Shown: piece by piece, positions 3,433-14,102 of the stretch
How positions within the stretch are numbered: the first letter of the stretch is position 1
Layout of the letters: each line of letters opens with the position of its first letter
DNA from: Polyangiaceae bacterium
Lineage (GTDB): Bacteria; Myxococcota_A; Polyangia; Polyangiales; Polyangiaceae
DNA length: 46,503 bases
NCBI GenBank assembly: GCA_020848455.1
Contig: JADLAB010000490.1
Span: 1 to 46,503, forward strand
Direction of reading: 5' to 3'
The notes under the pieces: model-generated
Told to the model about the DNA's origin: nothing
Databases searched by the model: none
What the model saw: the letters and a program-made list of their open reading frames with translations, nothing else
Made by a program: the position numbers and the translations under genes

Positions 3433-4794
3433 TCAGGCTGCGCGCCGGCGGCGACGCCCGAGACCGAGCGCCACGCCGGCGACCGCCGCCCAGGCGAGCC
3501 CGCTCGCGCCGCGCGAGCCCGCGCCGAGGCTGCAGGACGCGCTCGCGACCGTGCCCGTGTAGTTCTGATCCGGGGTGTCGCCCGCCACCCAGCTGTCGCC
3601 GCCCGCGCCGTTCGCGCCGGGGCCGCCGGCGCCCGTTCCCGAGCCGCCGGCACCCGTGGTCGTCGTGGTCGTGGTGGTGGTGGTCGTCGTCGTGCTGCTG
3701 CTCGTCGGGTTGATGCCGCCCTGGCACATCGAGTCGCTGCCGCACTCGGCCTGGCAACCGGTCGTGCACACGCAGTCGAAGATGGCGTTGAAGAGCTGGT
3801 AGCCGGTCGGGTGCTGGTTCACGCACTGCTGCTGGCAGGCCGCGGTGGAGCAGCCTTGCAGGCAGGTGTTGAGCGCCGAGCAGTCGGTGTTGGCGAAGCA
3901 CGCGTCCACCTGGCTCGAGCATGCGCCCACGCCGCTCGTCGCGGCCTCGAAGCACTGGTTGCAGGTGAGCTGCCCCTGCGGCGAGCCGTTGATGTAGGGG
4001 ATGATGAACGTGTTGTAGACCGCGCTCACGCGCCCGCTCACGCCGCCCGCGGTGCAGTCGTTGCTCGTGATGTACGAGGTCACGCCCGCCGCGAGCTCCG
4101 GACCGCTCGTCGTGAGCTGCGTCCCGCCGGAGTCGCCGAAGCAGGTGCCCGTGCCCGGGTCCTCGTAGGCGATGGTGAGCGAGGTCACGTCCTGCAGGGT
4201 GCCGGTGACGTGCCGGCGCTGGGTGTTGCTCGAGTTCGGGTAGCTCGTCATGCCGTAGCCGACGTGCAGCACCTGCTGGCCGACCGCGAGGTTGTCCTGA
4301 GCGGGCGTCATCGCCGGGATGACGGGCGTCGCGGCGCCCACGCCGACGATGCGCACCATCGCGAAATCGAAGACGGCCTGGTTGTAGCCGTTGTGCGCCT
4401 GGTAGTCGTCGATGTTGTAGATGATGGCGCTGCCGGAGTTGTAGTCGTTGCCCTGCGCCACGACGCTGAGATCGGCCCCGACGCAGTGCGCGGCGGTGAG
4501 CACGTAGCCGAAATTCGCGTCCTTGTGCACGATGGTGCCGCTGCAGGCGCTGTTCTGCGACAGGACGGCGACGACGCCTTGGTGCGTGGTGTCGAGCTGG
4601 CCGCCGATGATCCCGTCGCTCGCGACCGCCACCCGGTCGCGCAGGGCGCGCAGGCGCGGATCCGTGGCGCGATCCGAGCAACCGATCGACGAGACGGCCG
4701 CCACGGCGCCGAGCGCCGTGAGGACGAGCGGGCGCCAGGCGACCTCGGCGCGGTCGAGCCCACGCGCCGGACGGGACGGGAAGAAGCGAGCCAT
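3433..4794 (-). CDS. Secreted trypsin-like serine protease with MYXO-CTERM-like tail
   Basis: 453 residues. The S1 protease domain starts at GIIGGQ (about residue 61). The triad is His103 (LTAAHC), Asp143 (DFAMVRI) and Ser222 (FGDSGG). Residues 15-39 are a hydrophobic leader ending SSIGC, either a lipobox or an ordinary signal. After the protease comes a segment of about 80 residues with some 14 cysteines, then SSS and 13 threonines, a Gly/Ala linker, and a C-terminus with one Cys (SASCSLG), a hydrophobic helix and RRRRR. That tail matches the MYXO-CTERM surface-sorting signal of myxobacteria. ATG 4794 is set by a perfect GGAGG at 4801-4805; an in-frame TTG at 4809 overlaps that site and is rejected. 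The gene is active-looking and exported; the substrate is unknown. Confidence 0.93.
   Translation of the reverse strand: MARFFPSRPARGLDRAEVAWRPLVLTALGAVAAVSSIGCSDRATDPRLRALRDRVAVASDGIIGGQLDTTHQGVVAVLSQNSACSGTIVHKDANFGYVLTAAHCVGADLSVVAQGNDYNSGSAIIYNIDDYQAHNGYNQAVFDFAMVRIVGVGAATPVIPAMTPAQDNLAVGQQVLHVGYGMTSYPNSSNTQRRHVTGTLQDVTSLTIAYEDPGTGTCFGDSGGTQLTTSGPELAAGVTSYITSNDCTAGGVSGRVSAVYNTFIIPYINGSPQGQLTCNQCFEAATSGVGACSSQVDACFANTDCSALNTCLQGCSTAACQQQCVNQHPTGYQLFNAIFDCVCTTGCQAECGSDSMCQGGINPTSSSTTTTTTTTTTTTTGAGGSGTGAGGPGANGAGGDSWVAGDTPDQNYTGTVASASCSLGAGSRGASGLAWAAVAGVALGLGRRRRRAA
3655..3705 (-). repeat. Poly-threonine/serine codon tract
   Basis: A run of ACG and ACC codons (13 Thr, then SSS and one more Thr) inside the trypsin gene, between the Cys-rich module and the sorting tail. 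It encodes a flexible, possibly glycosylated linker. ACG and ACC alternate irregularly, so it is not a pure microsatellite. Confidence 0.85.
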
Positions 4795-4826
4795 GCTGTG
4801 CCTCCGCAAGTACGGACTACCGGGCC

Positions 4827-7388: not shown

Positions 7389-7395
7389 AGAAGGC

Positions 7396-8304
7396 TCAGC
7401 CCGGCGGCCAGCCCCGGCGCGAGGACGGCAGCGGCGGGACGTAGCTCGCCGGAGGCTGCCGCAGCACGCGCAGATCCTGCCAAACCTCGCGCGCCGACTG
7501 GTAGCGGTACGCGTCGCGGCGGCGGAGCAGCTTCGCGATCACGTTGCCGACCGCCGTGCCGAGACCCTCGGCGCGCTGCCGGGCGGCGCCCTCGGCGATG
7601 AGGCGCGAGAGCTCCTGGTACGGCACGTCCTCTGGGAAGGCCGGGTAGCCGGTGTGCATGCGGAAGAGCAGCAGGCCGAACTGGTAGAGGTCGCTCTGGC
7701 GCGTCGTGTAGCCCATGGTCACGAGCTCGGGCGTCAGGATCTTCGGGTTCGCCACCTGCGGGCGGAACCAGTGCTGCCCGTCGAGCTGGTGCGACACGCC
7801 GAAGTCGCTGAGCTTGACGGTGGGCTGCGACTTCAGGTTGCTCACGAGCACGTTGCCCACGTGCAGATCGGAGTGCACGAGCCCGGCGTCGTGCAGGTAC
7901 GCGACCGCCATCAGGAGCTGGCGCGCGTACTCGATGAGCACCTCGTCCGGGAAGGGCGCGCCGACGAGCCGGCGCAGGCTCGTGTCGCAGCGCTCGAGCG
8001 CGATGTAAAAGAGGTGGTTGTGCTCGAAGGCGTCGTGAATGTAGACGATGTGCGGGTGGCGGTAGCTCTCGAGCCGCTTCATCTCGGCCTGCCACTCGTG
8101 CTTGACGAGCTCGTAGGCGCGGTTGGCGGGCCGGAACATCTTGAGGGCGTACGGCTGGTCGAACGGGCCGACGCACTCGTAGACCGAGCCGTACTGGCCG
8201 TCGCCGATGAGCTCGCCCACCTGGTAGGCGCCGCGCGCCGACGCGAGCACCGTCCCGGACACGGGGAACGGGATCAGGTGTTGGCCCGTCTGCCAGGAGG
8301 TCAC
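7396..8304 (-). CDS. Ser/Thr protein kinase, non-RD type
   Basis: 302 residues from GTG 8304. The reading frame runs on upstream without kinase sequence and into the TerB-like gene, so the short start is chosen. Kinase motifs run in order: glycine loop IGDGQYGSVYE (33-43), Lys55 (YALKMF), an alpha-C Glu near 70-74, catalytic loop HSDLHVGN (Asp146, Asn151), DFG at 167-169, then PELVTMGYTTRQSDLYQFG. The usual Arg before the catalytic Asp is Ser and the usual Lys is His, so this is a non-RD kinase. The C-terminus is short, with no membrane segment or sensor domain, so it is probably cytoplasmic. It lies 41 nt downstream of the TerB-like gene, a likely operon partner. Confidence 0.92.
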   Translation of the reverse strand: MTSWQTGQHLIPFPVSGTVLASARGAYQVGELIGDGQYGSVYECVGPFDQPYALKMFRPANRAYELVKHEWQAEMKRLESYRHPHIVYIHDAFEHNHLFYIALERCDTSLRRLVGAPFPDEVLIEYARQLLMAVAYLHDAGLVHSDLHVGNVLVSNLKSQPTVKLSDFGVSHQLDGQHWFRPQVANPKILTPELVTMGYTTRQSDLYQFGLLLFRMHTGYPAFPEDVPYQELSRLIAEGAARQRAEGLGTAVGNVIAKLLRRRDAYRYQSAREVWQDLRVLRQPPASYVPPLPSSRRGWPPG

Positions 8305-10212: not shown

Positions 10213-11037
10213 TCACTGGTCGCAGGCCGCGACCCAGTACTGGAACGTGAGGGTGGTCGCGCCGACCGGAATGACGACGCTCTGCGACAGGCTGCCCTCT
10301 TCGTAGTCGGCGATGCCGCCGAACCACGCCCACCATGCGCCATCGGCGGCGAGGTTGTCTCCGTTGGCGCACGACGCATCGCACAGCGGCGTGCCGAAGT
10401 TGGTGGAGTACTCCGTCCACGCGGTGCTCGGTGTACCGGCCTCGAAGGAGGGGTCGGCGATCGGGTTGCACGGGGCCCCGCCGCCACCGCCGCCGCCACC
10501 GGCACCGCCGGTCGCTCCCCCGCCGCCGCCGGCACCGCCGGTCGCTCCCCCGCCGCCGGCAGCACCCCCGCCGCCGCCCGCGTCGCCCCCCGTACCGCCT
10601 GCGCCACCGGCGCCGCCCGCACCGCCGCCGCCACCGCCGGCGCAGAGGCCGATGCTGGCGAGGTCGACGTCGAAGGTCGTCGTTCCGCCGTTCACGCCGA
10701 ACACCTCGGAGTGGAAGATGAGGGTGTGCGCGGCGCCGTCGGCGTAAGCGCTGATGTCGATCGTGCGCTCGGCGTAGGTCGCGGCCCCGCAATCGGCCGT
10801 GGTCATGTCGTCGAGCATCATCTGCTGGCCGTCGAGGGTGACCTCGAAATAGTCGGGCGAGGTCTGACCCGTCGTCGTGGTCGTGGTCGTGGTCGTCGTC
10901 GTGGTCGTCGTGGTCGTCGTGGTCGTCGTGGTCGTGGTCGTCGTCGGAACGACGGTCTCGTCATCCTTCGAGCACGCAGCCCAGCTCGTGCTCAGCACGG
11001 CGAGCGACGCTGCCGCCATCCAGTACTCTCGCTTCAT
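10213..11037 (-). CDS. Lipoprotein with apparently circularly permuted beta-sandwich domain
   Basis: 274 residues. ATG 11037 has AGGTGG upstream; a longer start at 11070 is less likely. The signal ends SWAAC (Cys22). Order after that: 25 Thr (32-56); a segment of about 70 residues from SPDYFEVTLDGQQM to TTTFDVDLASIGL; a Gly-rich linker of about 60 residues; then CNPIADPSFEAGTP..GAWWAWFGGIADYEEGSL..FQYWVAACDQ at the C-terminus. From memory of this surface-domain family, the SFEAG half normally precedes the DYLEV/HSE half in one domain. Here the halves are swapped, and the C-terminal ACDQ would join smoothly to SPDYFEV. It may bind carbohydrate or other surface ligands; that is inference. Confidence 0.85.
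   Translation of the reverse strand: MKREYWMAAASLAVLSTSWAACSKDDETVVPTTTTTTTTTTTTTTTTTTTTTTTTTGQTSPDYFEVTLDGQQMMLDDMTTADCGAATYAERTIDISAYADGAAHTLIFHSEVFGVNGGTTTFDVDLASIGLCAGGGGGGAGGAGGAGGTGGDAGGGGGAAGGGGATGGAGGGGGATGGAGGGGGGGGAPCNPIADPSFEAGTPSTAWTEYSTNFGTPLCDASCANGDNLAADGAWWAWFGGIADYEEGSLSQSVVIPVGATTLTFQYWVAACDQ
10501..10560. repeat. 30-bp tandem repeat in Gly-rich linker
   Basis: Two adjacent 30-bp units, 10501-10530 and 10531-10560, differ only at their last bases. They encode the repeated GGGGATGGAG stretch of the minus-strand lipoprotein. Their length is a multiple of three, so copy-number change would alter linker length without a frameshift. Confidence 0.9.
10870..10944 (-). repeat. 25-codon poly-threonine tract
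   Basis: Twenty-five consecutive ACG/ACC codons on the minus strand, directly after the lipidated N-terminus. The tract encodes an extended, possibly O-glycosylated stalk between the membrane anchor and the rest of the protein. Confidence 0.9.
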
Positions 11038-11168: not shown

Positions 11169-14102
11169 TCACTCGAGGCGCCGCAGCCCCACGGGCAGCT
11201 CGTCGCCGTAGAAGGCCACGCGCTCGGCGGCCGTCACCGGCACATGGGTCGTGAGCGGCTCGATGAAGGGCGCGTACGCCTCGACCTCGGCGAGCTTCTT
11301 CACGACCCGGGCGCGGAGTGCGTCCGACAGGTCGCGCTCTCGGTCGAGCGTGACGCGGCACATCGCGAGGGCCGCGCGGCCCGACGTCGGTAGCTCGCGC
11401 CATTTCTCGCGCAACAGGTGGTCCATCCAGCGCTCGACGGCGCTCGGCACGACGACCTGGTGCGCGCTGCCGTAGGTGGGCACGCGCGCCCCCACGCGCC
11501 CGAGCGCGGCCCAGAGCCGGGGGTCGCGATCGGTCCAGGTGCGCTCCACGATCCAGTCGCCGAGCTCCGCCTTCTGCTCGCGGGGCAGGCGCTCGAGGCT
11601 CGACAGGGCGTCGATCATCTCGCTCGGCGCCTCGACGCGCACGCCCTTCGGCTTCTTCAGCTTCGCCTCGGGCGGCGCGACGAACGGCGCCGCCAGGTCG
11701 AAGAGCGCGCGTTGCTCGCGCTCCCCGAGCCCGGCCGCCACCCGGCGCCAGGCGATCCAGAACTGCTGCCAGGTGCGCGGCTCGGAGAAGACCACGCGCT
11801 CGGGCAAGAGCCGGAAGAGCGCGCCCACGCGCCGCTCGTCGTCGGCGTCCCCGACGCCCGGTCGGAGCGCGTAGCCCGCGAGGAGCCAGAACATGCGCTC
11901 GTGCTCCGCGCTCCGCCGCCGGCCCACGCGGCGCGCCAGGAGCACGTCCGACAGGGTCCGCAGCACGGCGCCGCTCCAGTTGTCCCGCACGCCGAGCAGC
12001 CGTTCGAGCTCGCGCAGCAGGTTGCGCGCCACGCTCGGCTCGGCGCTCCCCTCCCCGGGCGTCGCGACGGCCGCCGGCGGCCCGAAGGCGCGCTCGCAGA
12101 GCGCCGTCACCTCGTCGAGCCGCTTGCCCGCGAGAGTACCCTGCGGGCCGCTCGGCGCCGAGGCCGTGCTCTGCTCCGGCGCGGGCGCCGGTGGCACGCT
12201 CGGCGGTGCCGCACCCGACCCCGGCCGGGCGACCGGCCCGAGCCGGCTCCCCCCGGTCGACGCTCCACCACCGTCCGCCTCGAGCTCCGTCTGCGCGCGC
12301 AGCTCGAAGGCGAGCCGGAAGCGCCGCGCGACCCCGCGCGCCGGCGCCGCCTCGACGCACGCGAGCTCGAGCGTGCCGACCGCCGTGAGCTCGGCCTCGA
12401 GCTCGACCGCCAGCTCCTTCTGCCGCTTCGGGCTGCCGAGGCGCGCGACGGCCGGCGGCAGGCGCTCGTGCTCCGCGGCGTCGAGGCGCACGAGCGCACC
12501 GAGGGCGTCCACGCCGCGATCGGACGCGTAGAGCTCGAAGCGCGCCGCCCGACCGAGCGTGAGCCCGACCGCGCGCCCCGTGACGCGCTGGCGCACGCCC
12601 TCGGGCGCGCCGCGCGGCAGCACGCACACCGCCTCGGCGACGCGTCGGCCGTCGAGGCCGCCGAGGCCGACGAAGTACGCGCGCGCCGACCCGCCGCCGA
12701 TGCGCGGACCGTGCCCGGCGAGCGCGAGCCCGAAGGCGACCGCGCCGCGCGCGACGGCCACGTCGGGGTCGGCGTTCGGCAGGAGCACGAGCGGACGCCC
12801 CACGAGCGCGCTCGCCACCTCGTGTACGCGCGCCGCGATCGCCGCGGCGTGAAAGACGCCGCCGTTCAGGTAGAGCGCGGTTGGCGTCGCCGTCGCCGCG
12901 TGGCGCGCCAGAAAGGCGGCCAGGTGCCGGCTCACCGCCGGCTCGCGCTCGTAAGGCAGGCCGAAGGCGCGCAGGCCGCCGCGCCGCTCGACCGATACCT
13001 CGCCCGGCACGACGCGCGGGAAGAAACCCTCGACGACGAGCTCCTCGACCTCGCGGAGCTCGAGGGTGGTCGTCAGGGCGCCCGAGAGCAGACGCGCGCC
13101 GGACCCGAGCACCGTCACGCCCACGCTCTCGGGCGCGCCGGGCGCGAGCAGCTTCTCCTTGGCGCGCCGCACGGCGGCCACGAGCTCCGCGAAGCGCCGC
13201 CCGTCGAGATGCTGGCCCTCGGGCACGAGGCGGCGCTCGCAGCGCTGCGCGAGCGCGAGGTCCATGTTGTCGCCCCCGAGCAACAGGTGCCGGCCCACCG
13301 CCACGCGCTCGAGCTGGAGCGGCGCGGAGGCGTCCGCGCCGGCACGGCGTCGCGCGCGGATGAGCGACAGATCCGTGGTGCCGCCGCCCACGTCGCACAC
13401 GAGCACGACCGCCTCGCCGGCCCCGGCGCGGAGCGCGCGCTCGAAGGCGCGCCCGAGCTCCGGGCTGGCGGCCTGTTCGGCGAGGAAATCGTAGAACGCG
13501 GCCTGCGGCTCCTCGACGAGCCGCACCGCCAGCCCCGCCGCGCGCGCCGCCTCGACCGTGAGCTCGCGCGCCACCGCGTCGAAGGACGCCGGCACGGTGA
13601 GCACCACGTCCTCTGCCGCGAGCGGTGCGTCGCGGTGGGCCGCATCCCAGGCTCGCCTCACGTGGCAGAGAAGCTCGGTCGCGGCCTCGACGGGCGAGAT
13701 GCGCGGCATGTCGTCGTCCGCCTGCCACGGCAGGATGCCGGCACGCCGGTCGACGGCGGCGTGGGAGAGCCAGCTCTTCGACGACGCGACGAGGCGTCCG
13801 GGCACCTCGGCCCCGCGCCGCGCGGCGTGCTCGCCGACGACCCACGCGCGCCCCGCGCCCGCCCCGCCGGTCGCGGGCCCGCCGGGCGCCGCGCCGACCT
13901 CGACGGGCAGCGGCTCGGCGCGCGGCTCGCCCTCCGGCGGAAGGTACAGGCTCGAGGCGAGCAGCGGCCGCGCCGCAGCCTCGGTCGCGCCGACGAGCTG
14001 CGCGACGTCGAACACGCGCGCCCGGGCGCCCGCCCGGCGCTCGGCGCACGCGACGACGGTGTGCGTCGTACCGAGATCGATGCCGACGACGAAGCTCTGC
14101 AT
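11169..14102 (-). CDS. Large Hsp70-family protein with C-terminal extension (DUF3731-type)
   Basis: 977 residues. The N-terminal half is an Hsp70/actin-fold ATPase: phosphate-1 motif IDLGTTHTVV (8-17), LTVPASFD, EEPQAAFYDF, phosphate-2 motif CDVGGGTTDLS, and an adenosine-site motif LYLNGGVF. DnaK is about 640 residues. Here the region after about 620 is an Ala/Pro-rich linker and then a helical domain of some 330 residues resembling the DUF3731 extension of atypical bacterial Hsp70s, in place of the usual substrate lid. No dnaJ or grpE is nearby, and the DUF2760 gene often paired with this family elsewhere is absent. ATG 14102 follows GAGGAA. A chaperone-like ATPase role in the cytoplasm is likely; the client is unknown. 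Confidence 0.9.
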   Translation of the reverse strand: MQSFVVGIDLGTTHTVVACAERRAGARARVFDVAQLVGATEAAARPLLASSLYLPPEGEPRAEPLPVEVGAAPGGPATGGAGAGRAWVVGEHAARRGAEVPGRLVASSKSWLSHAAVDRRAGILPWQADDDMPRISPVEAATELLCHVRRAWDAAHRDAPLAAEDVVLTVPASFDAVARELTVEAARAAGLAVRLVEEPQAAFYDFLAEQAASPELGRAFERALRAGAGEAVVLVCDVGGGTTDLSLIRARRRAGADASAPLQLERVAVGRHLLLGGDNMDLALAQRCERRLVPEGQHLDGRRFAELVAAVRRAKEKLLAPGAPESVGVTVLGSGARLLSGALTTTLELREVEELVVEGFFPRVVPGEVSVERRGGLRAFGLPYEREPAVSRHLAAFLARHAATATPTALYLNGGVFHAAAIAARVHEVASALVGRPLVLLPNADPDVAVARGAVAFGLALAGHGPRIGGGSARAYFVGLGGLDGRRVAEAVCVLPRGAPEGVRQRVTGRAVGLTLGRAARFELYASDRGVDALGALVRLDAAEHERLPPAVARLGSPKRQKELAVELEAELTAVGTLELACVEAAPARGVARRFRLAFELRAQTELEADGGGASTGGSRLGPVARPGSGAAPPSVPPAPAPEQSTASAPSGPQGTLAGKRLDEVTALCERAFGPPAAVATPGEGSAEPSVARNLLRELERLLGVRDNWSGAVLRTLSDVLLARRVGRRRSAEHERMFWLLAGYALRPGVGDADDERRVGALFRLLPERVVFSEPRTWQQFWIAWRRVAAGLGEREQRALFDLAAPFVAPPEAKLKKPKGVRVEAPSEMIDALSSLERLPREQKAELGDWIVERTWTDRDPRLWAALGRVGARVPTYGSAHQVVVPSAVERWMDHLLREKWRELPTSGRAALAMCRVTLDRERDLSDALRARVVKKLAEVEAYAPFIEPLTTHVPVTAAERVAFYGDELPVGLRRLE

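Follow-up and report, generated by a model that had tools for sequence, protein, structure and literature searches.

Here, we identify a natural circular permutation in a predicted bacterial surface lipoprotein, encoded in a stretch of DNA of 46,503 nucleotides from a Polyangiaceae bacterium, a groundwater myxobacterium (the window, by which we mean that whole stretch). Both halves of the protein's domain come from one domain family, cover complementary positions of it, and stand in reversed order, and the protein is thus a circular permutant. We propose, and regard as very probable, that this is a lipid-anchored surface protein in which a poly-Thr stalk bears a naturally permuted beta-sandwich domain, that the permutation arose by tandem duplication and trimming, and that the domain forms a single fold.

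The gene occupies positions 10213..11037 on the minus strand, and encodes 274 amino acids followed by a TGA stop. Its third-position GC content of 0.88 is like that of coding sequence of the same genome. An earlier sequence-only reading of this DNA had described a stalk, two domain halves and a Gly-rich linker, and we found every one of these segments in place in the frame running from 11037 to 10213. The product is predicted to be a bacterial lipoprotein: a signal peptide and lipobox (10972..11037, minus strand; LAVLSTSWAAC) match the regular-expression form of the PROSITE pattern at the predicted lipid-bearing Cys22, with a Trp at position -3 that is unusual and that the pattern permits. A stalk of 25 Thr follows (aa 32-56; 10870..10944, minus strand), and after it the domain's C-terminal half, which now comes first (SPDYFEV..SIGLC, aa 60-132; 10642..10860, minus strand, delimited with a profile of canonical-order relatives only). 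A Gly-rich linker of 55 residues (aa 133-187; 10477..10641, minus strand) then leads from the natural C-terminus of the domain to its natural N-terminus, and the domain's N-terminal half, delimited with the same profile, now comes last (APCNPI..ACDQ, aa 188-274; 10216..10476, minus strand). About 130 bp upstream on the same strand lies a gene for an Hsp70-like protein with DUF3731 (DNA-K related; 11169-14102, minus strand), and the permuted gene is flanked on its other side by an endonuclease-like gene.

Evidence for the permutation comes from comparing the two halves, separately and rejoined, with a profile built from 25 canonical-order relatives, from which the permuted protein and its orthologue were left out to avoid circularity. 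The late half (aa 60-132) scores 50.8 bits alone, at model positions 97-164, and 49.5 bits within the native protein (88-164); the early half (aa 188-274) scores 107.9 bits at positions 4-92. When the halves are artificially joined in early-then-late order, a single continuous match of 171.5 bits spans positions 6-164, and the domain is complete save possibly for a few residues of one loop. The best scores among shuffled controls, about 200 per half, were 3.7 bits for the late half and 8.5 bits for the early half. The two halves thus belong to one family rather than to unrelated ones. The earlier reading had inferred a permutation from the letters, and it is borne out by these complementary half matches, by the full-length match of the rejoined sequence, and by canonical-order paralogues in the same genome.

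A search of the source genome with the rejoined sequence returned two such full-length canonical-order relatives, on contigs C446 (45% identity) and C164 (41%). Both proteins (L003 on C446, L004 on C164) share with the permuted protein the domain itself, its six cysteines and its C-terminal placement, yet they differ from it in having the usual half order and no internal Gly linker, at 41-45% identity. L003, too, is a lipoprotein, and a Thr-rich stalk immediately precedes its domain. In canonical myxobacterial members the domain is often C-terminal, behind a low-complexity stalk, and stalks that directly precede it are Thr-rich in L003, L010 and L016, and Gly-rich in L007, L055 and L029. Our survey covered 317 genomes of the class, 32 of which carry the domain, together with 377 from the phylum and three behind named loci. 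These samples overlap; their union is more than 650 genomes, and about 36 of these are carriers of the domain, strong or weak. Across this union, all full-length matches outside the permuted gene are in canonical order, no further permuted copy was found, and the reversed order is confined to the source genus. Two partial matches that we considered as other permuted copies, G161:C1025 and G591:C172:70848-71108, sit at contig ends and were set aside. Among all loci that we fetched, a late half precedes an early half in one frame only in the permuted gene and its orthologue. No relative of the domain was found in the viral contigs searched. In a phylogenetic tree, the permuted pair is nested within canonical sequences (27-row group, 97/93), with an Acidobacteriota sequence as its nearest neighbor (87/83), and the permutation is therefore derived. 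Taken with this survey, the tree points to the canonical order as the widespread and ancestral form.

The earlier reading had called the domain a known one, and this holds only in the sense that it has remote relatives of the choice-of-anchor J and MAM-like kind: searches of Pfam and NCBIfam with the native protein, with each half and with the rejoined sequence gave no domain match, and the weak matches of the native protein fall on its signal peptide and low-complexity stretches. A search of PDB sequences with the family profile also gave no match. The choice-of-anchor J family (NF038128) is matched in register and in canonical order by one canonical relative, L008, over its second half (E 7.8e-6); at 26.2 bits this best score among the relatives lies under the curated cut-off of 30, and the permuted protein itself gives no match to NF038128 and does not count as a member. 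Three family members weakly match InhA-like_MAM in Pfam, where an E of only 0.086 is reached. The structural model of a canonical member resembles the jelly rolls of MAM, reelin, the gingipain K1-K3 cleaved-adhesin domains, and carbohydrate-binding modules (CBM families 16, 27, 35, 36 and 61) at Z scores of about 9-11, values that at 7-18% sequence identity may mean a common arrangement only. We read the domain as a probable distant member of the group formed by the choice-of-anchor J, MAM-like and CBM jelly rolls. By its resemblance to these folds, its likeliest role is that of a surface-displayed binding domain, perhaps for a glycan, and a ligand would then most likely be bound at the cell surface, as in the related CBM, MAM and cleaved-adhesin folds.

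We propose that a tandem duplication would first have produced a stalk-domain-Gly-stalk-domain arrangement, and that loss of the first copy's N-terminal half and the second copy's C-terminal half would then have left the present order of C-terminal half, Gly linker and N-terminal half. Because the 55-residue linker spans the natural termini, the two halves should be able to fold together into one jelly roll. The position of the cut should make it tolerable: it falls in a loop where 20 of the 25 canonical sequences have one to four additional residues. This loop is one of the sites of the domain that vary most in length, and in the AlphaFold2 model of a canonical member (pTM 0.69) it lies between strands 79-86 and 96-101. 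A CAG (Gln) codon stands at both cut ends (..GAC CAG TGA and GGT CAG ACC TCG..), as would be expected if each end had kept part of the same loop; at three bases only, this is weak evidence. Doubled forms of the domain do exist, since a Hydrogenedentota protein (L065, G591:C172:37000-41000) carries two full canonical copies in one chain; the same Hydrogenedentota genome holds nine family matches, several of them adjoining Gly-Glu repeat linkers. Next to the permuted gene, however, we found neither an intermediate of the duplication nor a remnant of the lost halves, and no close canonical parent copy survives, the nearest being about 45-48% identical.

All six domain cysteines are retained in the permuted protein, and their placement suggests how the old and new ends could be held. 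Cys272, the third residue from the C-terminus (10222..10224, minus strand), has Cys83 (10789-10791) as its predicted partner. In the two alignment columns concerned, both residues are Cys in 11 aligned rows, as well as in L043 at a one-residue shift, and both are non-Cys in the other 31. This pattern suggests a Cys83-Cys272 disulfide that would clamp the new ends, a pairing that is supported yet unproven because related rows are not independent and the co-occurrence partly reflects shared ancestry. At the old ends, the natural-terminus cysteines Cys190 and Cys132 lie on opposite sides of the Gly linker and would probably form a second disulfide clamp.

Structure prediction of the native protein, which the sequence-only reading had suggested as a check, returned the strand order expected of a rotated domain, though in a model of low confidence (mean pLDDT 53.9, pTM 0.54). 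The strands of this model lie at 7-12, 15-21, 33-38, 47-57 and 66-75, and after the linker at 135-137, 152-155, 189-199 and 204-213; taken at that low confidence, they correspond to elements 6-10 of the canonical order and then to elements 1-5, except that the short strand 54-57 is missing. The alignment behind the prediction was shallow, since its rows were limited to the window sequence and the related loci that we fetched. A search for similar folds with the native model yielded only weak structural matches, none of them clear, with a best Z of 4.8. Given a low-confidence model and such weak matches, the single correct fold stands as a prediction.

A sister species (G001) provides an independent view of the gene. 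Its orthologue, in record JACRDA010000127.1 of Myxococcales bacterium isolate NC_groundwater_1660, is permuted in the same way, with the same ends and stop, and has a Gly-rich linker that is nine residues longer. It is the sole homologue with the same half order, and it contains the same single pair of halves; same-order homologues forming two independent folds were not found. The flanks of the gene are collinear between the two species over about 11 kb at 94-96% DNA identity. Next to an FKBP-type isomerase gene, the DNA of the sister species is longer by about 1.3 kb (window 7395-7399 versus L042 9492-10781).

These observations bear on three other explanations for the gene. That an assembly or binning error swapped the halves seems to us barely conceivable. 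Both genomes are indeed fragmented, into 742 and about 500 contigs, and low-complexity repeats adjoin both halves; however, two separately assembled contigs with about 4-6% DNA divergence, different linker lengths and collinear flanks agree on the order, and the swapped order sits in one open frame. Because the gene is permuted in the sister species too, and has a longer linker there, we do not regard the order as an assembly artefact. We also think it very unlikely that the gene is a relic without function, left by a broken tandem duplication, with halves that have lost the ability to fold. The relic reading is favored by the restriction of the permuted order, among the genomes searched, to a single genus, and by the low confidence of the native model. 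Against it, the two halves together differ between the species by nine synonymous and six nonsynonymous changes, on 111 synonymous and 369 nonsynonymous sites; neutrality is rejected for the pooled halves (P=0.0023), each half alone having too few changes, and the permuted protein, with its halves pooled, is therefore under purifying selection. The retention of the same ends and stop in two species, the six kept cysteines, and the intact signal peptide and stalk likewise speak against decay.

The halves might instead complement each other between molecules, forming a domain-swapped oligomer and thus a multimer at the surface. A long flexible linker would allow such swapping, and both halves are present in one chain either way. 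Yet the termini of a jelly roll normally lie close together, and the 55-residue Gly-rich linker far exceeds the length needed to bridge them, so that closure within one molecule should be favored; the cysteine clamps, moreover, would form as easily within one chain. We therefore consider the swapped oligomer improbable, although less so than a relic, and favor a permuted domain that closes on itself.

The permutation places the tether on the loop that separates strands 5 and 6 instead of on the domain's natural N-terminus. With its attachment on a different loop, the permuted domain should be presented in another way than its canonical sister. It is possible, though we hold it doubtful, that the permutation is adaptive, showing a different face than the canonical poly-Thr paralogue does, and thereby giving one organism the same domain in two orientations. 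Circular permutation is a known kind of event, and the present case of it is new. Many natural circular permutants are old and come to light only when folds are compared. The published permuted pair of carbohydrate-binding modules is reportedly CBM36 and CBM60. In that pair the permutation separates whole families, whereas here it falls inside a single genus that still has both canonical copies and the linker. A permutation of this natural kind has been described for carbohydrate-binding modules that depend on calcium (Montanier 2010, doi 10.1074/jbc.M110.142133). A comparable proposal of changed presentation was made for Tp0684, a bacterial binding protein that is both lipid-tethered and circularly permuted, and the authors of that study suggest that the permuted topology may have arisen as an adaptation to anchoring (PMC4990184); Tp0684 has a bilobed ligand-binding fold and is unrelated to the domain described here. 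Among the genomes searched, the present permutant occurs in a single genus only, the linker that joins its old ends is still visible, and canonical copies, one of them on a like stalk, reside in the same genome; both the duplication-and-trim route and the idea of re-orientation are therefore directly testable.

Two further observations concern other proteins. A serine-protease-like protein encoded elsewhere in the window (3433-4809, minus strand; GDSGG and TAAHC motifs) has its own poly-Thr and Gly-rich linker and a C-terminus with a hydrophobic stretch and Arg tail that resembles a MYXO-CTERM sorting signal; it has no Pfam match at E 0.001. Between the two species, the canonical domain of the long repeat protein L004 is 75% identical to that of its counterpart L011 (dN 0.17) and has thus diverged far more than the rest of the protein, which is 93% identical.
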